DNA of 64,000 nt from Syntrophobacteraceae bacterium (GTDB lineage Bacteria; Desulfobacterota; Syntrophobacteria; Syntrophobacterales; Syntrophobacteraceae), in NCBI GenBank assembly GCA_025453975.1, contig JALOPI010000036.1:1-64000 (forward strand). The letters are read 5' to 3'. The notes under the pieces were generated by a model. The model did not search any database and had not been told where the DNA came from. It was given only the letters and a program-made list of their open reading frames with translations. This document shows positions 25,089 to 35,355 of this stretch, one piece after another. The translations under genes were made by a program, and so were the position numbers. Each line of letters begins with the position of its first letter. Within the stretch, counting starts at the first letter, position 1.

Positions 25089-25525
25089 CGATCTCCCTCC
25101 TTTTAAAGGTTCTCCAAAGCTCGATCCCCATGCCCCTCACTGCCACGGCCGATCACACCGGCGGCATTTCGGCATGGCCGGCCCGGTGACGGCCGCCTCA
25201 CCGTCAGCATACCACCCCACCAGTACCAAATCTCCACAAGGTTCAAATTAAGGCGACCCACGGTCAAAGGCAACCGTACCGCCGGCAGCGCCGGCAAGCT
25301 CATGGGGACCTGACGTCAGCTCATCCGCCCGGATCAGAGCCGACCGTCCCGTCCTGCCTGCCCGCCGGCAAGCGTGCTCGCGTGTAAAACCGCTGGCATT
25401 TCGCCCGGGAATGAAGGATATATTCCCTCGCACTGGGGTGAATGCCCTCCGGGCCTTCTCTCGATCCGTGCTCACATGGAATCGCATCCACGGTTCGTCG
25501 ACTCAAAGGGCGGCTAGGTCTCGTG
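25089..25525. other. 437-base intergenic region upstream of the inositol-phosphate synthase gene
   Basis: Divergent space between the 63-residue gene and ino1. A small inverted repeat (GGGAAT...ATATTCCC, 25407-25427) is visible; no strong promoter, riboswitch or gene was recognised. Confidence 0.5.
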
Positions 25526-26758
25526 ATGAAAAGGAGAAAGACAGGGGTTTGGCTCATCGGCGCATTGGGCTCCATCTCGACCACAGTGATCACGGGAGCC
25601 CTCGCTCTCCGGAGCAGAATCATCGAGCCCGTGGGAATGGTTACCGCCGGAGGCCTTTTCGAGGGCATTCCACTGGCTCGGATGGAAGATCTGGACTTCG
25701 GGGGATGCGACATCCGCAGGGGCAGCCTCCTGGATTCCGCTGCCCATCTCCTGCGGGAGACGGGCACTCTGTCAGGAGGGATCCCGTCTGAAATCCGAGC
25801 GGATCTCGAGGAGATCGACTCCCGCATCGTCCTGGGAACCGCCATCAATTGCGGAGAAGCCATCCAGCAGCTGGCCACCTCCCAGCCAGGCCGCATCCAG
25901 AGCCTTCGAGACCGAATCGACCTCATTCGCGGCCAGCTCTCCAGCTTCAGGACGACCCGATCCCTGGACACGGTGGTCGTCATCAACCTGGCCTCGACGG
26001 AGCCGCCTTTGGCCCCGTTCCCCCATCACGACGATCTCTCGCTGCTGGAGCGCTGTCTGGACGTATCCGACGAAAGCTCCATCCGTGCCAGCACCCTTTA
26101 TGCGTATGCCGCCATTCGAGAGGGGTGCCCCTTCATCAATTTCACACCTTCCCAGGGGGCCCTCCTGCCCGCATTGATTGAGCTGGCGAGTCAATCCCAT
26201 GCTCCCGTCATGGGGAACGACGGAAAGACCGGCGAGACTCTGGTCAAATCGGCCCTGGCTCCCATGTTCTCCTATCGCAGCCTGAAGGTGCTCAGCTGGG
26301 AAGGCTTCAACATCCTCGGCAACATGGACGGGCGCGTTCTGGACAACCCCCTCAACAAGGCGGCCAAGATCCAGACCAAGGACCAGGTGCTTTCGAAAAT
26401 CCTCGGGTACTCCCCTCACAGTCGCGTCCACATCGACTACGTGCCTTCACTGGACGATCAGAAAACGGCATGGGATTTCATCCATTTTCAGGGATTTCTC
26501 GGAGCCAGGATGTCCCTGCAGTTCACGTGGCAGGGGTACGATTCCATCCTGGCCGCCCCCCTGGTTCTGGATCTCGCCCGGTTGGCCGAGCTAGCCGTCA
26601 GGCGCGGAGAGTCCGGACTGATGCCCCATCTGGCATCCTACTTCAAGGCGCCTCTGGGTGTTGATGCCTTCGGCCTGCACGAGCAGTACGGCATGCTGGC
26701 TGAATACGCCGAGGGGGCTCGACTGGCCCCGCGGTCAGGCCGTCCCGTCGAGCCCTGA
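25526..26758 (+). CDS. ino1: Inositol-3-phosphate synthase-family protein
   Basis: Converts glucose 6-phosphate to 1L-myo-inositol 1-phosphate with tightly bound NAD; 410 residues, between the mycobacterial (about 367) and yeast (533) enzymes. The NAD loop is VWLIGALGSISTTVITG near residue 10; the family signatures PVMGNDGKTGETLVKSALAP and NMDGRVLDNPLNKAAK plus LGYSPHSRVHIDYVP are clear. ATG 25526 is chosen because the Rossmann strand then starts near residue 8. It is followed by two TIM-barrel paralogues on the same strand. Such loci often make inositol-containing lipids or solutes, but no CDP-alcohol transferase is present here. Confidence 0.9.
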   Translation: MKRRKTGVWLIGALGSISTTVITGALALRSRIIEPVGMVTAGGLFEGIPLARMEDLDFGGCDIRRGSLLDSAAHLLRETGTLSGGIPSEIRADLEEIDSRIVLGTAINCGEAIQQLATSQPGRIQSLRDRIDLIRGQLSSFRTTRSLDTVVVINLASTEPPLAPFPHHDDLSLLERCLDVSDESSIRASTLYAYAAIREGCPFINFTPSQGALLPALIELASQSHAPVMGNDGKTGETLVKSALAPMFSYRSLKVLSWEGFNILGNMDGRVLDNPLNKAAKIQTKDQVLSKILGYSPHSRVHIDYVPSLDDQKTAWDFIHFQGFLGARMSLQFTWQGYDSILAAPLVLDLARLAELAVRRGESGLMPHLASYFKAPLGVDAFGLHEQYGMLAEYAEGARLAPRSGRPVEP

Positions 26759-26853
26759 GCCCGTGATGGGATCCCCGACGGCGAGGCTGCTCAGCTTCCC
26801 ACGCCCACGCTCGCAGGGAATTCCCCTCGGACTTCGGAAGATCAGAAGCCACC

Positions 26854-27717
26854 ATGAAGCTCTCATTCAGCACCAACGCCTACACCCGCTTTCCCCTCGC
26901 GGAGGCGGTGCGCAGGATCGCCGCCGCGGGCTACGCCGGGGTGGAGATCCTCGCCGACGCTCCGCATCTCTTCCCGCCGGCCTTCAGCGACTCCGAGGTG
27001 GAGCGGCTGGCGGCCCTCCTCGGGGATACCGGCCTGAAGCCGGCCAACATCAACGCCAACACCGCCGTGGGGTACTACGGGCGTGACTTCTGGGAGCCGC
27101 TTTTCGAGCCGTCCCTGGCGAACCCGGTGGATGGGGAGCGCAGGTGGCGCATGGAGTACACGCGCCGCTGCATTGAGGTGGCGGGAAGGCTCCGGTGCCC
27201 ATCGGTGAGCGTCACGTCGGGCCGGACGGTGCCTGGAGCTTCCCCCCGAAGGTCCATGGACCTTCTGAGGGAGTCCCTGCGGGAGCTGCTTCCCTTTGCC
27301 GAAGCGCACTCCGTAAGTCTGGGGATCGAGTATGAGCCGGGGCTGCTCATCGAGAACGCCCGGGAGCTGGCGACCCTGTTGCAAGAGATCGATTCGCCCA
27401 TCCTTGGGGCCAACCTCGACCTGGGCCACAGCCGGGTCCTGGGGGAAAGCCCCGAAGAAGTGCTGCGGATTCTGGGCGGGCGGATCTTTCACATTCACCT
27501 GGAGGACATTGCCGGGAACAAGCACTATCACCTGGTTCCCGGTGAAGGAGACATGGACTTCGAGAGCCTCGTCAGCCTGTTGGAGCGGCACCGCTATGCA
27601 GGCTTCGTCACCGTGGAGCTCTATACCTATCCCCACTGCCCGGATGACGCCGCGCGCCGATCGATGGATCGCCTGGGGCCCCTCATGAGGCGCGCCGGAC
27701 GCCCTGGGGCCGCATGA
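26854..27717 (+). CDS. Sugar-phosphate isomerase/epimerase-like TIM barrel (first of tandem pair)
   Basis: 287 residues of the xylose-isomerase-like/AP-endonuclease-2 superfamily. Putative divalent-metal ligands are Glu159 (GIEYEPGLLIEN), Asp189 and His192 (NLDLGHS), His215 (FHIHLEDIAG) and Glu255 (VTVELYTY). It shares FSTNAY, AGYAGVEILAD, EPGLLIEN and FVTVELYTY with the next gene, so the two are duplicates. It is 95 bases downstream of ino1; a role on inositol or a keto-inositol is an inference from context only. Substrates of this superfamily are varied. Confidence 0.85.
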   Translation: MKLSFSTNAYTRFPLAEAVRRIAAAGYAGVEILADAPHLFPPAFSDSEVERLAALLGDTGLKPANINANTAVGYYGRDFWEPLFEPSLANPVDGERRWRMEYTRRCIEVAGRLRCPSVSVTSGRTVPGASPRRSMDLLRESLRELLPFAEAHSVSLGIEYEPGLLIENARELATLLQEIDSPILGANLDLGHSRVLGESPEEVLRILGGRIFHIHLEDIAGNKHYHLVPGEGDMDFESLVSLLERHRYAGFVTVELYTYPHCPDDAARRSMDRLGPLMRRAGRPGAA

Positions 27718-27844
27718 TGCATCGCTTCGACGGGAAAACGGCCCATCCGCTCTCCCCGACCCGGCGCTGCCGCCTCCGTCGGGGCCGCCGACAGGACCCG
27801 GCTCCATGCTCCAGCTGCATGGCTCACAGAAGGAGACGCTTTTC

Positions 27845-28675
27845 ATGAGATTTGCCTTCAGCACCAACGCATTCCGTCAGTACAGCCTCTCCGATGCGAT
27901 GCGCATCGTGGCCGATGCGGGCTACCACGGCGTCGAGATCATGGCCGACGTCCCCCACGCCTACCCGCTCCACCTCGGCTCATCGGACATCCATGCCATT
28001 CGACGCACCCTGGACGATTGTGGCCTGGAGATCTCCAACATCAACGCGTTCATGCACCACGCCGACGGAGACACGTACCATCCCTCCTGGATCGAAAAGG
28101 AGCCGGAGCTTCGAGCCAAACGCGTCGACTACACTCTGCGATGCATCGACCTGGCCGCCGAGCTGGGGGCGCGCCACCTCTCCACGGAGCCCGGAGGTCC
28201 GCTCCAGGACATGACCCGGGAGGAAGGGCTGGAGCTGTTTCGCGAGGGGCTGCGGCAGGTGGAGGAAAGGGCCTGGGTCCGGAACGTCCGCATCCTCATC
28301 GAGCCCGAGCCGGGGCTGCTCATCGAGAATTCCGAGCAGTTCCTGGAGCTTTTTCAGAATCTGGATCCGGCGGTCTTCGGCCTGAACTTCGACATTGGAC
28401 ATTTCTTCTGCGTGGGGGAAGATCCGGCGGCCCGGGTGAGGGACCTTCAGGCTGTCGCTCACCACTATCACCTGGAGGATATTGCCCCATCGAGGGAGCA
28501 TCACCACCTGATGCTGGGGCATGGAGCGGTGGACATACCGGGGGTTCTAGACACCATTGACGGCACCGGGTACGATGGTTTTGTCACCGTGGAGCTCTAC
28601 ACCTACGAGGATCGCCCCATCGAAGCCGTTCGGAACGCCATGGAATACCTGATGGCCTGGAAGGGACGCCCATAA
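27845..28675 (+). CDS. Sugar-phosphate isomerase/epimerase-like TIM barrel (second of tandem pair)
   Basis: 276 residues; ATG 27845 with AAGGAG 9 bases upstream, since the longer frame from 27806 adds unconserved residues. Metal-site equivalents of its neighbour are Glu153 (LIEPEPGLLIEN), Asp183 and His186 (NFDIGHF), His209 (HYHLEDIAP) and Glu250 (VTVELYTY). Full retention of the site in both copies suggests two active enzymes with different substrates, not a decaying duplicate. The next gene is convergent, so this ends the ino1 unit. The following 198 bases hold nothing recognisable. Confidence 0.85.
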   Translation: MRFAFSTNAFRQYSLSDAMRIVADAGYHGVEIMADVPHAYPLHLGSSDIHAIRRTLDDCGLEISNINAFMHHADGDTYHPSWIEKEPELRAKRVDYTLRCIDLAAELGARHLSTEPGGPLQDMTREEGLELFREGLRQVEERAWVRNVRILIEPEPGLLIENSEQFLELFQNLDPAVFGLNFDIGHFFCVGEDPAARVRDLQAVAHHYHLEDIAPSREHHHLMLGHGAVDIPGVLDTIDGTGYDGFVTVELYTYEDRPIEAVRNAMEYLMAWKGRP

Positions 28676-29417: not shown

Positions 29418-30032
29418 TCAGGGAAACCTGTCCGCGTAGCGAGCCATGATGAACATCAGAAACCCCAGGCGGTTGACGTAGCTCAGAAGCTCGGGACGCT
29501 GCACGCCCCCGGCCTCATGGAGTGCCACGATGCTCCGCTCGGCCCGTCGGACCACCGTGCGCGCCATATCCAGGGAAGCGCTCACCGGGTTGGTCCCTGG
29601 ATCCACGAAGCTTCGTGACAGGGGAGCCTCCACCTGCAGTTCGGAGACCCAGACTTCGAGCGCGGAGATCTCGCCCTCCTCGACCCGCTGGAGATCCCTC
29701 CCCGGATCGGTGTTGGAGAGCTCGGAACCCAGGAGGAGCAGATCCCGCTGTATGGCCGTCAGGATCTCCCGGATCCTGGGATTGGAGGAGAGCGCCTTGG
29801 CCAGCCCCATGACGGCGCTGGATTCGTCGAGATTGCCGCAGGCCTCGACGCGGAGATTGGTCTTGGAAACCCTTTCGCCGGACAAAAGACTGGTCTCGCC
29901 CTGGTCGCCTCGCTTGGTGGACGTGATGATTCTTGATTTGCCGCCTTCCTCCGATGCCACCTCCTGGATCCTCTCTTCCCTGGCGGCCGTGCCGGCTCCG
30001 CCCTTGGCATCATGTGTGACTCCACCGGTCAT
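29418..30032 (-). CDS. pduO: Corrinoid (cob(I)alamin) adenosyltransferase, PduO type
   Basis: Transfers adenosyl from ATP to reduced cobalamin, making coenzyme B12. The family core is TSTKRGDQGETSLLSGERVS, then VEACGNLDESSAVMG and the C-terminal RRAERSIVALHEAG and NRLGFLMFIMARYAD. 204 residues from ATG 30032, including about 33 extra N-terminal residues; the start is uncertain because no good ribosome site is visible and in-frame codons exist upstream. It is downstream of cobT and the ThiC/BzaF-type gene on the same strand, consistent with a cobamide-completion unit. Confidence 0.9.
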   Translation of the reverse strand: MTGGVTHDAKGGAGTAAREERIQEVASEEGGKSRIITSTKRGDQGETSLLSGERVSKTNLRVEACGNLDESSAVMGLAKALSSNPRIREILTAIQRDLLLLGSELSNTDPGRDLQRVEEGEISALEVWVSELQVEAPLSRSFVDPGTNPVSASLDMARTVVRRAERSIVALHEAGGVQRPELLSYVNRLGFLMFIMARYADRFP

Positions 30033-30290
30033 CTCCACGCCGCCGGTCGGGGGAGATGACGAGCACCGGTTCGCTGGACTCATTGCTCGAAAGTAGCGCT
30101 TTTCAGCTCCTGAAACAATGGTTTTGCGACCGCCTGCCGGAGGCGGGGTCTGGAGGCTCTCCCCCGCGGGCGGAATCCCTGAAAAGGCTCGAGGTCCCGG
30201 AGAAAACCCTTCCATCGCCTCGGCGCCGTGACCATCCCTCGGAGCCCGTTCAGGAACGGCAGGCCGACACACACGAGCGGGGTCGGTCCC

Positions 30291-31364
30291 TCAGGGGTTG
30301 GGCCCACTGCTCACCCCCGCCTCGTCGAAGGTGAGGACCTCACGGAAGACCCGCGTGGCGGCCTCCATGGTGCCCATGGCCAGGGCGGCTCCCGTGCCTT
30401 CACCCAGCCGCAGCCCCAGGTCGAGGATGGGCTCCAGCCCCAGGTGGCTTAGCATGGCCCGATGCCCCGATTCCTCCGAGCGGTGGCCGGCAAACACGTA
30501 ATCCAGAACCGCGGGACAGAGGGCATGGGCGATGAGGGCTCCCGCGGTGGAGATGAAGCCGTCGATGACCACGGGCCGCCGATGGTGGGCCGCGGCCAGG
30601 ATGCACCCCGCGATACCCCCGATCTCGAATCCCCCCACTTTGGCCAGCACATCCAGTCCGTCCGAGCCGTCGGGCTGGTTGACGGCCAGTGCCCGCTCGA
30701 TGACGCTGCGCTTGCGTAACAATCCTTCGTCGTCTACCCCCGTTCCCCTCCCGACCATCGACTGGACTGGGATCCCCGTGATGGCCACACCAATGGCCGC
30801 GGACGGCGTGGTGTTGGCGATGCCCATGTCACCGGTGCCGATGAGCTGGATCCCTCGCTCGAACCGTTCCGCAGCCAGTCTGAAGCCGTGCAGGATTGTC
30901 TCCTCGGCCTGGTCCCTGCTCATGGCGGGGCCCCGGGCCATGTTGGCCGTCCCGCGCCCCACCTTGCACACCCGCAGCTGATCGCTTCCGGGAAGCGAGG
31001 CGATGTCCAGGTCCGGGATGATTCCCATGTCCACCACGACGACCTCGGCACCGACCCATCGGGCCAGGGCATTGATCCCCGCTCCGCCCCGCAGGAAGTT
31101 CTTGACCATCTCCCCCGTCACCTCCTGGGGGAAAGCACTGACTCCCTCGGCGGCCACCCCGTGATCGCCGGCCATCACCAGCACGGCCCTCCGACTGACA
31201 TCGGGCTCGAGACTCCGAAAGATACCGCAGAGCCTTTCCGAAATGTCGTGAAGCCGTCCCAGGGCACGGGGCGGCAGGGCCAGCCGCGCCGTCCGCTCCC
31301 GCGCCTTATTCACCCAGGCGCCATCCAGGGGTCCAATCCCCTCCACGATATCCCTGATCCTCAT
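30291..31364 (-). CDS. cobT: Nicotinate-nucleotide:5,6-dimethylbenzimidazole phosphoribosyltransferase
   Basis: Activates a benzimidazole base to its alpha-ribotide for the lower ligand of cobamides; 357 residues, the normal length. Signatures: MAGDHGVAAEGVSAFPQEVT, GTGDMGIANTTPSAA, GLDVLAKVGGFEIGGIAG, VFAGHRSEESGH and GLRLGEGTGAALAM, where Glu322 matches the catalytic Glu of the Salmonella enzyme. AGGAAAGGATGG precedes the ATG. It is 112 bases after a benzimidazole-synthase candidate, so that product is its likely substrate. Confidence 0.97.
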   Translation of the reverse strand: MRIRDIVEGIGPLDGAWVNKARERTARLALPPRALGRLHDISERLCGIFRSLEPDVSRRAVLVMAGDHGVAAEGVSAFPQEVTGEMVKNFLRGGAGINALARWVGAEVVVVDMGIIPDLDIASLPGSDQLRVCKVGRGTANMARGPAMSRDQAEETILHGFRLAAERFERGIQLIGTGDMGIANTTPSAAIGVAITGIPVQSMVGRGTGVDDEGLLRKRSVIERALAVNQPDGSDGLDVLAKVGGFEIGGIAGCILAAAHHRRPVVIDGFISTAGALIAHALCPAVLDYVFAGHRSEESGHRAMLSHLGLEPILDLGLRLGEGTGAALAMGTMEAATRVFREVLTFDEAGVSSGPNP

Positions 31365-31476
31365 TGTCCATCCTTTCCTTGCATTCACGCAGCAGCTTCG
31401 GCTGCCTGGTCCACGCCACCCCAAATAACCAGAAGCCGGAAACCGGAACCCGTGCCATCACAACATGCGCGGGGTC

Positions 31477-32787
31477 TCACGACTTCTCCCCTCCTGCCAG
31501 GAGATGCCCGAAGAGGTCGGATGAGCCCTTATTGGCGCAGAAATCGCCACACATGGTACACACATGACCATCCCGGGGGGAGCGGCTGTCTCGAATAGCG
31601 CGGGCTTCGTCGGGGAAGAGCGCGTGACGGAATTGCCCTTCCCAATCCAGATCGCGCCGCGCCTTGCTCATGGCCTTGTCCCGGGCCCGGGTCCTTTCGG
31701 GGTGTTTCGCCATGTCCCCGATGTACGCCCCGACCCGGGCCGCCCTCACCCCTGCCACCACGTCCTCCTCGTTGGGCAGGGCCAGGTGCTCGGCCGGCGT
31801 GATGTAGCAGATGAGGTCCGCGCCGTAGCGGGCGCTGCTGGCCGCGCCGATGGCCGCCGCCACATGGTCGAGCCCTGCCGCGACGTCCGTGGGGATGGGG
31901 CCCAGCATGTAGTAGGGAGCATCGTGGCTCATCCGCTTCTGGAGAATGATGTTGGCCTCGATCTCGTCCACCGGCACATGACCGGGCCCCTCCACCATCA
32001 TCTGGCAGCCCATCCCGCGTCCCAGCTCAGCCAGCTCGCAGTTGATGAGCAGCTCCTGGACCATGGCGCGGTCGAAGGAGTCCCATATGGCGCCGGACCG
32101 CAGCCCGTTGCCCAGGGAAAGCACCGTGTCGTACCTCCGGAGGATGGAGACCACCCGGTCGAAGTGCTCGTAGAGGGGGTTCTCGCGGTTGTTGTGCTTC
32201 ATCCAGGCCACCATGGAGGTCCCCCCCTTGCTCACCAGCCCGCCGTACCGGTATCCCTGCCGCTCCAGCCGCTCGATGGTGTAGAGGTTGATGCCGCAAT
32301 GGACGGCCATGAAGGAGATCCCGTCGGCACACTGACGCTCGATGAGGTCGAAGAGCAGCTCCTCGTCCAGCCTGTTGGGGTCTCCATAGCGCCGCGCGGC
32401 CTCGCCGAAGGCCTGATAAAGGGGAACGTTTCCCACCGGGAGATCGACGGCGGCCAGGACTTCACGGCGCACCCGGTCGAGGTCTCCGCCCACCGAAAGC
32501 TCCATGAGGGTGTCCGCGCCGGCGGCCTGGGCCGCCCGGGCCTTGCGCACCTCGGCTTCGATGTCCACGATGTCCGTGGACGTTCCGATGCTCGCGTTGA
32601 CCTTGGACCGAAGACCCCGGCCAATGCCGACGAGCCGGCCCGACCTGTTGGCATTGAGTGGAACCACGATCTGACCGTCGGCCATTCGCTGGCGAACCGT
32701 TTCCGGCTCCAGCCCCTCCTGGCGCGCGATCTCCTGCATGACGGGGGTGATGTTTCCCTGAACGGCGAGCTGGACCTGTGTGGACAT
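31477..32787 (-). CDS. bzaF: ThiC-family radical SAM enzyme, probably 5-hydroxybenzimidazole synthase (BzaF)
   Basis: Rearranges aminoimidazole ribotide; ThiC gives the thiamin pyrimidine, its paralogue BzaF gives 5-hydroxybenzimidazole for cobamides. 436 residues with the ThiC core: NRSGRLVGIGRGLRSKVNAS, GADTLMELSVGGD, VEGPGHVPVDEI, YYMLGPIPTDVAAGLDH and CYITPAEHL. The C-terminal cluster motif is Cys410-x2-Cys413-x3-Cys417 (CTMCGDFC), one residue shorter than the CX2CX4C of ThiC. BzaF is preferred because a cobalamin riboswitch precedes it, not a TPP one, and cobT and an adenosyltransferase follow. A thiamin role cannot be excluded by eye. Confidence 0.85.
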   Translation of the reverse strand: MSTQVQLAVQGNITPVMQEIARQEGLEPETVRQRMADGQIVVPLNANRSGRLVGIGRGLRSKVNASIGTSTDIVDIEAEVRKARAAQAAGADTLMELSVGGDLDRVRREVLAAVDLPVGNVPLYQAFGEAARRYGDPNRLDEELLFDLIERQCADGISFMAVHCGINLYTIERLERQGYRYGGLVSKGGTSMVAWMKHNNRENPLYEHFDRVVSILRRYDTVLSLGNGLRSGAIWDSFDRAMVQELLINCELAELGRGMGCQMMVEGPGHVPVDEIEANIILQKRMSHDAPYYMLGPIPTDVAAGLDHVAAAIGAASSARYGADLICYITPAEHLALPNEEDVVAGVRAARVGAYIGDMAKHPERTRARDKAMSKARRDLDWEGQFRHALFPDEARAIRDSRSPRDGHVCTMCGDFCANKGSSDLFGHLLAGGEKS

Positions 32788-32863
32788 GGACTGCCTCCCG
32801 ACGCACGGCTCGGGCGTCCCCTCCCTGGGGAGCGCCTCGAGAACGGGTTGACCCGCGCCGGAA

Positions 32864-32904
32864 ACAAAAAAATCCCCAAGCGCGGAAAAAGCGCCTGGGG
32901 ATTT
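32864..32904 (-). terminator. Riboswitch-controlled intrinsic terminator
   Basis: On the minus strand AATCCCCAGGCGC pairs with GCGCTTGGGGATT (32871-32903, one G-T pair) around a TTTTTCC loop, followed by seven T. It lies directly between the cobalamin aptamer and bzaF, the usual place for a transcription-terminating expression platform. Confidence 0.9.
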
Positions 32905-32925
32905 GCCATCTCCCCTTGAGCATCC

Positions 32926-33095
32926 CGGATGCCAGGTCTTCTGACTCTCGGATCGTCCTACTTCCCGCGCCTTCCCATTCCATTTGGGAGTGGAACAGTG
33001 GCATCGTGCGGGATTCGTCCCCGATCACAGCGGCGGGCCCGTGCCGGATTCACACCGGCTTCCCTCTTCATGGCCCCCCAGGGGGCCAGCATCCG
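32926..33095 (-). promoter_or_regulatory. Cobalamin (B12) riboswitch
   Basis: About 170 bases on the minus strand. Closing helix CGGATGC/GCATCCG (33089-33095 with 32926-32932). The B12-box core appears as GAAGCCGGTGTGAATCCGGC, then GCCGCTGTGAT, GATGCCACTG and AGTCAGAAGACCTGGC, all in the order of the Rfam cobalamin family. It is followed by a terminator and then bzaF, so high cobalamin should stop transcription of the lower-ligand genes. Confidence 0.95.
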
Positions 33096-33122
33096 AATAT
33101 CATTCCTCGATCAAGCGACTGT

Positions 33123-33151
33123 CAAATAAGCGAGAATGCAGCGAGTGTCAA
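33123..33151 (-). promoter_or_regulatory. Promoter of the riboswitch-bzaF operon
   Basis: TTGACA (33146-33151), 17-base spacer, TATTTG (33123-33128) on the minus strand, placing the start about 20 bases before the riboswitch. A second TTGACA 17 bases from TGATAT lies just downstream, but its start point would fall inside the aptamer, so it is less likely. Confidence 0.65.
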
Positions 33152-33402
33152 CCCCTTTCCCAAGATGGGTCACATGGGCGGCCCGAGGAGCCTGAAGGCT
33201 CCCCCTGGATCCTTCCGGTTCCACCGTCGTCGTCGCTCAAACGGCGGCGGACTCATGGATTAACACTTTTCAGAGCCGCGGCAGCCATTATATTAACAGA
33301 GCGTCAGCGAGATCGTCATGAATGGCCCAAATGTCTGCCGCCTCCACAGGCCATGGGGTCTCAACTCCCGGCATCATCACACCAAGAGAGAGGAAAGCGT
33401 TC

Positions 33403-35355
33403 ATGAGCGAGTACCGAGTGGTCTTCCAGCCTCACAACAAATCCGTCATCGTCGCCGAGGGCGAGAACCTGCTTCGAGCGGCCATGGAAGCCGGCGTTCA
33501 CGTCAATGCCTCGTGCGGCGGCGCGGGTGTCTGCGGCAAGTGCCGGGTGATCGTCGAGGCTGGATCCATCGAGGGAGGCGTCACGGACAAACTGAGCCCA
33601 GGGGACGTGGGTAAAGGCTACAGGCTGGCTTGCCAGAGCGCCGTTCACAGCGACCTCACGGTGCGCATTCCCGTGGAATCCGAGGTGGATGCCAGCGTTC
33701 TCAACAAGCTGGCCACTCCGCGCAAGACGGCTCGCATCCATGACGTGGATTTCGAATCCCTCAAGGACCAGGGACTCTTCATCCCACCCGTTGAGAAGCG
33801 CTACCTCGAGCTTCCGCCGCCAAGCGACAGCGACCGGCTGCCGGATGTGACGCGGCTCATCAGCTACCTCAAGGCCCAGCACAACGAGCATCGACTGGTG
33901 GCCCGTCTGCCCGTGATCCGCAAGATTCCGGACCTCCTTCGGTCGAGCGGCTTCAAGGTGACGGCGACCCTGGCCCGCCCCGTTCTGCCCGGCCGCAAAA
34001 GCCACATCATCAACGTCGAGGCCGGGGACACCACCGGCCGCAACTTCGCCATTGCCGTCGACATCGGGACCACCACGGTCTACGGGCAGCTCATCGACGT
34101 CATCAGCGGGGAAGTGGCGGCACAGCACGGGGAGTTCAACGCCCAGATCAGCTACGGCGAGGACGTGCTCAGCCGCATCGTCTACGCCGAAAAGCCCGGC
34201 GGGCTGGAGAAGCTCCACCAGGTGGTCGTGGGGACCATCAACACCATCATCCGGAAAATCGTTCGCGACTCCGGAGTCAGTCTCGATGAAATATCGAGCA
34301 TCACCCTGGCCGGCAACACCACCATGACCCAGCTGTTCCTGAAGATCAACCCGCGCTACATCCGCTACGCCCCCTACGTGCCCGCCGCCACCCTCTACCC
34401 GCCCATCACCGCTTCCAATATCGGCCTGGAGCTGGGTGACCACGTGTCCGCCCTGGTCTACCCGGCCATCTCGAGCTACGTGGGTGGCGACATCGTGGCC
34501 GGCGTCATGGGCGCCGGCCTTTATCGGACCGAGGATGTCACGCTCTACCTCGACATCGGAACCAACGCCGAAATCGTGGTGGGCAACAAGGACTGGTTCG
34601 CCTGCGCCGCCTGCTCGGCCGGTCCCGCCTTCGAGGGCGGAGGGCTGCAGTTTGGCATGCGTGCAGCCAAGGGAGCCATAGAAGACTTCTCCATCGACCC
34701 CGTCACCCTGGAGCCGATGCTCATCACCGTTGGCAATGCACGCCCCAAGGGCATCTGCGGCTCGGGGCTCATCACCATCGTGGCGACATTCCTGGAGCTT
34801 GGGATCATCGACAACCGCGGCAAGTATCACACGGATCTTGCCAGTAAGCGCATCCGTCAGAACGATGGTGTGTGGGAGTACGTTCTGGCCTGGGCCGAGG
34901 AAACCCAGATCGACCGGGACATCACCCTCAACGAGAACGACATCGACAACCTCATTCGAGCCAAGGGCGCCATCTTCAGCGGTTACCAGACCCTGCTGGA
35001 GGAAGTGGGGCTGACCCTCGACAACATCGACAAAATCGTTCTGGCCGGCGGTTTTGGAAGCTTCGTGGACCTGGAGAAGGCCATGGTCATCGGGCTCCTG
35101 CCCGAGACAGACCCCGAAAAGATCACCTTCATCGGGAACGGGTCCCTCCTGGGCTGTCGCATGAGCGCCCTCACCAATCGGCTGCGGCGGGATGTCGTCG
35201 AAGTGACCAGAAAGATGACCAGCTTCGAGCTGTCGGACACCCCGTCCTACATGGACCACTATGTGGCTTCGCTCTTCCTTCCCCACACGGACATCGATCT
35301 CTTCCCCAGACTCAAGGGCAGAATGGACGCGAGAAGGGGATCATCACAGGTGTAG
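33403..35355 (+). CDS. RACo-type corrinoid activation protein (2Fe-2S ferredoxin plus ASKHA ATPase)
   Basis: 650 residues from ATG 33403 (GAGGAAAG upstream; an earlier in-frame start at 33322 adds unrelated residues). The N-terminal plant-type [2Fe-2S] domain has Cys38, Cys44, Cys47 (ASCGGAGVCGKC) and Cys77 (RLACQSA). A linker with the PPVEKRYLELPPPSDSD segment is followed by the ASKHA domain (AVDIGTTTVYGQLID, LAGNTTMTQLFL, DIGTNAEIVVG, LAGGFGSFV). RACo proteins use ATP to re-reduce cob(II)alamin in corrinoid proteins of the methyltransferase and Wood-Ljungdahl systems. It is divergent from the bzaF operon; its corrinoid partner is not in the window. Confidence 0.93.
   Translation: MSEYRVVFQPHNKSVIVAEGENLLRAAMEAGVHVNASCGGAGVCGKCRVIVEAGSIEGGVTDKLSPGDVGKGYRLACQSAVHSDLTVRIPVESEVDASVLNKLATPRKTARIHDVDFESLKDQGLFIPPVEKRYLELPPPSDSDRLPDVTRLISYLKAQHNEHRLVARLPVIRKIPDLLRSSGFKVTATLARPVLPGRKSHIINVEAGDTTGRNFAIAVDIGTTTVYGQLIDVISGEVAAQHGEFNAQISYGEDVLSRIVYAEKPGGLEKLHQVVVGTINTIIRKIVRDSGVSLDEISSITLAGNTTMTQLFLKINPRYIRYAPYVPAATLYPPITASNIGLELGDHVSALVYPAISSYVGGDIVAGVMGAGLYRTEDVTLYLDIGTNAEIVVGNKDWFACAACSAGPAFEGGGLQFGMRAAKGAIEDFSIDPVTLEPMLITVGNARPKGICGSGLITIVATFLELGIIDNRGKYHTDLASKRIRQNDGVWEYVLAWAEETQIDRDITLNENDIDNLIRAKGAIFSGYQTLLEEVGLTLDNIDKIVLAGGFGSFVDLEKAMVIGLLPETDPEKITFIGNGSLLGCRMSALTNRLRRDVVEVTRKMTSFELSDTPSYMDHYVASLFLPHTDIDLFPRLKGRMDARRGSSQV

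Follow-up and report, generated by a model that had tools for sequence, protein, structure and literature searches.

A cobalamin riboswitch-led bzaF-cobT-adenosyltransferase operon predicted to make 5-hydroxybenzimidazolyl cobamide in a Syntrophobacteraceae bacterium

The window analysed here is a 64,000-nucleotide stretch of contig JALOPI010000036.1 (positions 1 to 64,000) from a Syntrophobacteraceae metagenome-assembled genome (MAG; GCA_025453975.1) of 4.01 Mb in 118 contigs, 88.1% complete with 5.9% contamination. Its minus strand carries a cobalamin riboswitch, a ThiC-family gene, cobT and a gene for a PduO-type adenosyltransferase, a gene order which an earlier note had read from the letters alone and which the scores of PF01964, TIGR03160 and TIGR00636 confirm. 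In order of transcription the features are as follows.

33147 to 33152, minus strand: candidate -35 hexamer TTGACA, read directly, with a weak -10 hexamer downstream
32914 to 33108, minus strand: complete cobalamin riboswitch aptamer (RF00174, 115.9 bits, model positions 1-189 of 189)
32870 to 32904, minus strand: intrinsic terminator, a 14-pair stem with a U run (z -2.85)
31477 to 32787, minus strand: bzaF, predicted 5-hydroxybenzimidazole synthase, a ThiC-family radical S-adenosylmethionine (SAM) protein of 436 amino acids (PF01964, 580 bits; BzaF clade, support 100/100; S66 and N227)
30291 to 31364, minus strand: cobT, nicotinate-nucleotide:benzimidazole phosphoribosyltransferase (TIGR03160, 432 bits, cut-off 319)
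29418 to 30032, minus strand: PduO-type corrinoid adenosyltransferase (TIGR00636, 141.7 bits, cut-off 108.45), whose orthologue in a genus mate (G001, 97% complete) also lies behind cobT

The interval first drawn around the operon, 30032-33151, spans the riboswitch to cobT but ends at the start codon of the adenosyltransferase, whose body (30032-29418) lies outside it.

The leader bears out the full aptamer and the terminator that had been described. The RF00174 match runs over the full length of the model, against a gathering score of 31.5, and the U run follows directly on the terminator stem, the 81-nucleotide terminator segment having a folding energy of -37.4 kcal/mol. A strong terminator stem and U run occupy the same position in 9 of the 10 leaders compared (the window leader counted), and most of these leaders have a GGGGAGATGGYAAATCCYC-like segment 5' of the terminator. 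A GGGGA segment upstream of the terminator could pair with UCCCC to form a competing antiterminator hairpin. The architecture of the leader makes cobamide-induced transcription termination the likely mode of regulation. An Rfam search of 12 other bzaF loci located a cobalamin riboswitch directly 5' of bzaF in nine (L012, L041, L048, L049, L050, L052, L053, L054 and L127) and several genes upstream in the other three, all from Geobacteraceae/Desulfuromonadales. The promoter claimed for the operon stands only in part: the TTGACA hexamer at 33152-33147 is perfect, but the hexamers 17-18 nucleotides downstream of it (TTATTT or TATTTG) are poor, and the promoter scan did not report the site. The top site of that scan uses a TTGACA at 33125, and its -10 box would fall within the aptamer. 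A strong sigma-70 promoter was rejected, the -35 hexamer alone being good, and the site is retained as a tentative operon promoter.

The identity of the ThiC-family protein decides how the operon is to be read. As BzaF, a radical-SAM paralogue of ThiC, it would need no partner protein to rearrange aminoimidazole ribotide (AIR), an intermediate of purine and thiamin synthesis, to 5-hydroxybenzimidazole. An ordinary ThiC that is, unusually, controlled by cobalamin would fit the scores that it reaches with the ThiC models TIGR00190 and NF009895, both above cut-off, but BzaA- and BzaB-type proteins pass the same models, which are thus non-discriminating. The host MAG has exactly two ThiC-family genes, the window gene and one on contig C87, and the latter has a thiamin pyrophosphate (TPP) riboswitch immediately upstream, which marks it as the thiamin gene; this is the other, TPP-controlled thiC that the earlier note had in mind. 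Orthologues of its own genus and family share 82-88% identity with the window protein, and many proteins from Geobacteraceae, Desulfuromonadales and other former Deltaproteobacteria share 72-85%. Outside this clade identity is at most 48%, with 42-46% to same-family ThiC, the ThiC of its own genome included. In a maximum-likelihood tree of 40 proteins, which included the solved Arabidopsis and Caulobacter ThiC, the window protein falls within a 19-row clade (support 100/100) together with proteins of Geobacter, Geomonas, Geomobilimonas, Malonomonas and Desulfuromonas. The nearest group is formed by tandem BzaA/BzaB proteins from three same-family genomes (98/94), and all ThiC proteins stand apart, so that the phylogenetic placement agrees with the reading as BzaF rather than ThiC.

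The active site separates the same two groups. AtThiC (Arabidopsis) numbering was transferred via PDB chain 4S25, with the offset set on D383 and checked on E422. The equivalent of At-N228 is Ser in 89/89 clade members (S66 in the window protein) and Asn in 21/21 ThiC, whereas the equivalent of At-D383 is Asn in all 89 clade members (N227 in the window protein) and Asp in all 21 ThiC. These two residues thus split BzaF from ThiC without exception in the sequence set compared. The window protein retains the E422 equivalent and the catalytic Cys (Cc-C474, Caulobacter numbering), and its radical-SAM cluster motif CTMCGDFC (CX2CX4C-type) near the C-terminus aligns with that of ThiC. In ThiC, N228 contacts the 3'-OH of AIR and the N228D change abolishes formation of hydroxymethylpyrimidine phosphate (HMP-P), while D383 hydrogen-bonds the imidazole N3 of AIR and D383N restores activity only partly (PMC11117688). 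Changes at both positions would be in keeping with an AIR radical that reacts differently. Taken with the second thiC, the tree and these residues exclude the ThiC group, and an ordinary ThiC is ruled out as extremely improbable. The claim that the ThiC homologue is best read as a 5-hydroxybenzimidazole synthase is accordingly upheld as a prediction from the second thiC, the clade and the residue changes.

The protein might also be one half of a two-protein synthase of the BzaA/BzaB type. BzaA and BzaB do form the nearest group, and tandem pairs exist in the same family. The sole other ThiC-family gene in the genome, however, is ThiC itself, with no second Bza-type gene to serve as a partner, and on this ground the half-enzyme was rejected. 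The residues argue in the same direction, as the E422 equivalent is kept in the window protein but is Lys in the three BzaA rows, and the N228 site holds Ser rather than the Leu of BzaB. With the BzaB model TIGR04386 the window protein scores 515.8 bits, under the curated cut-off of 700, and the BzaB proteins of two same-family genomes score 742-750. We consider a half-enzyme scarcely credible.

Which cobamide would result depends on the genes that follow bzaF in the pathway. Searches of the whole host genome with same-family queries gave a best BzaD match of 71 bits (cut-off 450) and best BzaE and BzaC matches of about 29% identity, none of them an orthologue; the genus mate likewise has no BzaC, BzaD or BzaE orthologue. 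The absence of bzaC/D/E, first noted for the neighbourhood of the operon, thus extends at orthologue level to the entire host genome. BluB gave no match over cut-off in the host genome. With BzaC, BzaD, BzaE and BluB absent, the base should stay unmethylated and the predicted product is 5-hydroxybenzimidazolyl cobamide ([5-OHBza]Cba, Factor III). Published rules predict this cobamide for bzaF and cobT without bzaCDE (PMC8123684; PMC7726332; framework in PMC6461909), and Geobacter sulfurreducens, which has bzaF and cobT, makes it (PMC8123684; PMC7726332).

Methyltransferases encoded elsewhere, or by genes that the MAG happens to lack, could nevertheless turn the BzaF product into 5-methoxybenzimidazole or 5,6-dimethylbenzimidazole. 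The 88% completeness of the MAG leaves room for such genes, a sister genus has bzaC-bzaD-bzaE straight after bzaF, and the genome encodes generic O-methyltransferases and B12-radical SAM proteins (the ~29% matches). In both window-genus genomes seen, however, cobT follows within about 110 bp of bzaF and the BzaC/D/E searches fall far under orthologue scores, which makes further modification of the base unlikely. Somewhat less likely again is a dominant cobamide with another base, whether through a preference of CobT for imported or endogenous bases or through the use of imported cobamides. CobT specificity differs among clades (PMC8123684), environmental bases are salvageable (PMC6461909), and the host genome encodes a BtuC-like permease in one of its cobalamin-riboswitch regions. 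Set against this, the host has a single CobT (one PF02277 match), encoded behind bzaF in the same operon, so that co-adaptation of the two is expected, and no CbiR over cut-off was found in the host genome.

We therefore favour, at a probability of roughly 0.85, a cobamide-repressed operon whose BzaF, CobT and adenosyltransferase make 5-hydroxybenzimidazolyl cobamide. When cobamide is scarce, the leader RNA would let transcription through; cobamide bound to the aptamer would cause the terminator to halt it. CobT would phosphoribosylate the 5-hydroxybenzimidazole supplied by BzaF for the nucleotide loop; adenosylation of the corrinoid would fall to the PduO-type enzyme. Genes for the corrin ring (CbiL, CbiD, CbiE/T, CbiF, CbiG, CbiH and a CbiK-like protein) are present in the regions holding the other cobalamin riboswitches of the host. 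Two contigs, C29 (L147) and C83 (L149), carry similar cbi clusters, each with cobalamin riboswitches. Either the cluster is genuinely duplicated or the 5.9% contamination accounts for one copy.

Several observations weigh against this assignment. CobS was not found in the host MAG, although the genus mate and all 24 other relatives checked have it, which makes an assembly gap the likely cause. The completeness and contamination of the MAG mean that the absence of bzaCDE is not absolute, though the genus mate agrees. The general ThiC models accept the window protein, so that automatic annotation would call it ThiC. Finally, the tree holds Geobacteraceae/Desulfuromonadales relatives of the characterised BzaF, GSU3005, and neither that sequence nor any other experimentally characterised BzaF.

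The operon is of a known kind, with a precedent in G. sulfurreducens, and occurs here in a family outside Geobacteraceae. The formation of [5-OHBza]Cba from the G. sulfurreducens bzaF/cobT pair was reportedly described by Hazra et al. in 2015. The likeness to that system (bzaF, GSU3005, with cobT) lies in a single-gene 5-hydroxybenzimidazole synthase, a cobT and no reported bzaCDE (PMC7726332; PMC8123684). In the Geobacteraceae/Desulfuromonadales loci examined, cobT mostly precedes bzaF, in several cases separated from it by a few genes and with the riboswitch further upstream, whereas in the window bzaF comes first, directly behind the riboswitch, and cobT and the adenosyltransferase follow. 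With the bzaABCDE cobalamin pathway the operon shares an anaerobic benzimidazole route from AIR and a ThiC-type enzyme beside cobT, but a single synthase stands in place of the pair, and the three modifying enzymes are missing. ThiC itself, the HMP-P synthase (AtThiC, 4S25; CcThiC, 3EPM), has in common with the window protein the Pfam family, the C-terminal cluster motif and the equivalents of E422 and Cc-C474, and differs from it in the N228 and D383 equivalents, in its separate clade and in TPP instead of cobalamin control.

A closer comparison is offered by the sister genus in the same family, whose operons run bzaF-bzaC-bzaD-bzaE/CbiR-cobT (L041-L045, L125-L129) behind the same riboswitch and terminator arrangement. 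The closest counterparts of the window-genus bzaF and cobT are those of this genus: bzaF is 82-85% identical, and cobT about 70% identical where no other CobT exceeds 57%. The sister-genus operons place bzaC, bzaD and bzaE in the stretch from bzaF to cobT, which in the window genus measures about 110 bp. The window genus is without these three genes and the CbiR domain, its adenosyltransferase follows cobT, and the operon of the genus mate is likewise bzaF-cobT-pduO. Some other relatives, too, have bzaC, bzaD and bzaE after bzaF, and across these and the sister-genus operons cobT comes after the three or after bzaF. We give even odds to the proposal that the predicted cobamide, cobalamin in the sister genus, became 5-hydroxybenzimidazolyl cobamide in the window genus when bzaC-bzaD-bzaE/cbiR was removed and bzaF and cobT were kept. 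Loss in the window genus is tentatively favoured over gain in the sister genus. The order bzaF-C-D-E also occurs in L048, which the bzaF tree places outside the family. The C/D/E proteins of L048 are about 50-60% identical to those of the sister genus, to which the C/D/E of the bzaAB-type operon are only about 35-45% identical, and this makes loss the simpler history.

Sister-genus BzaE continues in a single open frame (773-826 amino acids) into a C-terminal domain of CbiR, a cobamide-remodelling phosphodiesterase (NF041277, 229-256 bits, cut-off 105). The fusions are located as follows.

L127, 2136-4583, minus strand: BzaE-CbiR fusion (NF041277)
L041, 10308-12626: BzaE-CbiR fusion (NF041277)
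L042, 10251-12722: BzaE-CbiR fusion (NF041277)
L044, 10425-12902: BzaE-CbiR fusion (NF041277)
L129, 1747-4128, minus strand: BzaE-CbiR fusion (NF041277)

In genome G014, CbiR is a separate gene (L123:481-1299) right behind bzaE. That locus has bzaA-bzaB ahead of cobS-cobT-bzaC-D-E-cbiR, and other members of its genus, such as G007 (L127), use bzaF; judged by gene content, the first step is interchangeable (bzaA-bzaB or bzaF) within one genus. The BzaC proteins of L127 (5893-7536, minus strand) and L123 (4120-5673, minus strand) carry a C-terminal DUF2284, a predicted metal-binding domain (PF10050, 110-133 bits), and that of G016 (L121:4961-6025) is short, with no room for DUF2284.

Within the window, the gene divergent from bzaF (33322-35355, plus strand) encodes an AcsV/RACo-type corrinoid activation protein (NF040756, 669 bits, below the cut-off of 800), a consumer-side partner of cobamides beside the operon. 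On the other side (25442-28675, plus strand) lie an inositol-phosphate-synthase-like gene and two TIM-barrel genes of the AP (apurinic/apyrimidinic) endonuclease 2 family, the second of which has a similar gene close to the operon in the genus mate. The two TIM-barrel genes (26854-28675) were considered as CbiR remodelling enzymes and rejected, the better one scoring 44.5 bits against the cut-off of 105.

The general ThiC models accept BzaF, and bzaF is thus easily overlooked by automatic annotation. The identity of the lower ligand determines which microbes can use a shared cobamide, and the BzaE-CbiR fusion of the sister genus would link ligand synthesis with the salvage of foreign cobamides. 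The window bacterium is predicted to make Factor III; for the sister genus, which has three further genes in the same operon, the prediction is cobalamin. If this is true, the two genera would form a natural pair in which to follow how the ligand shapes CobT and the enzymes that depend on cobamides.

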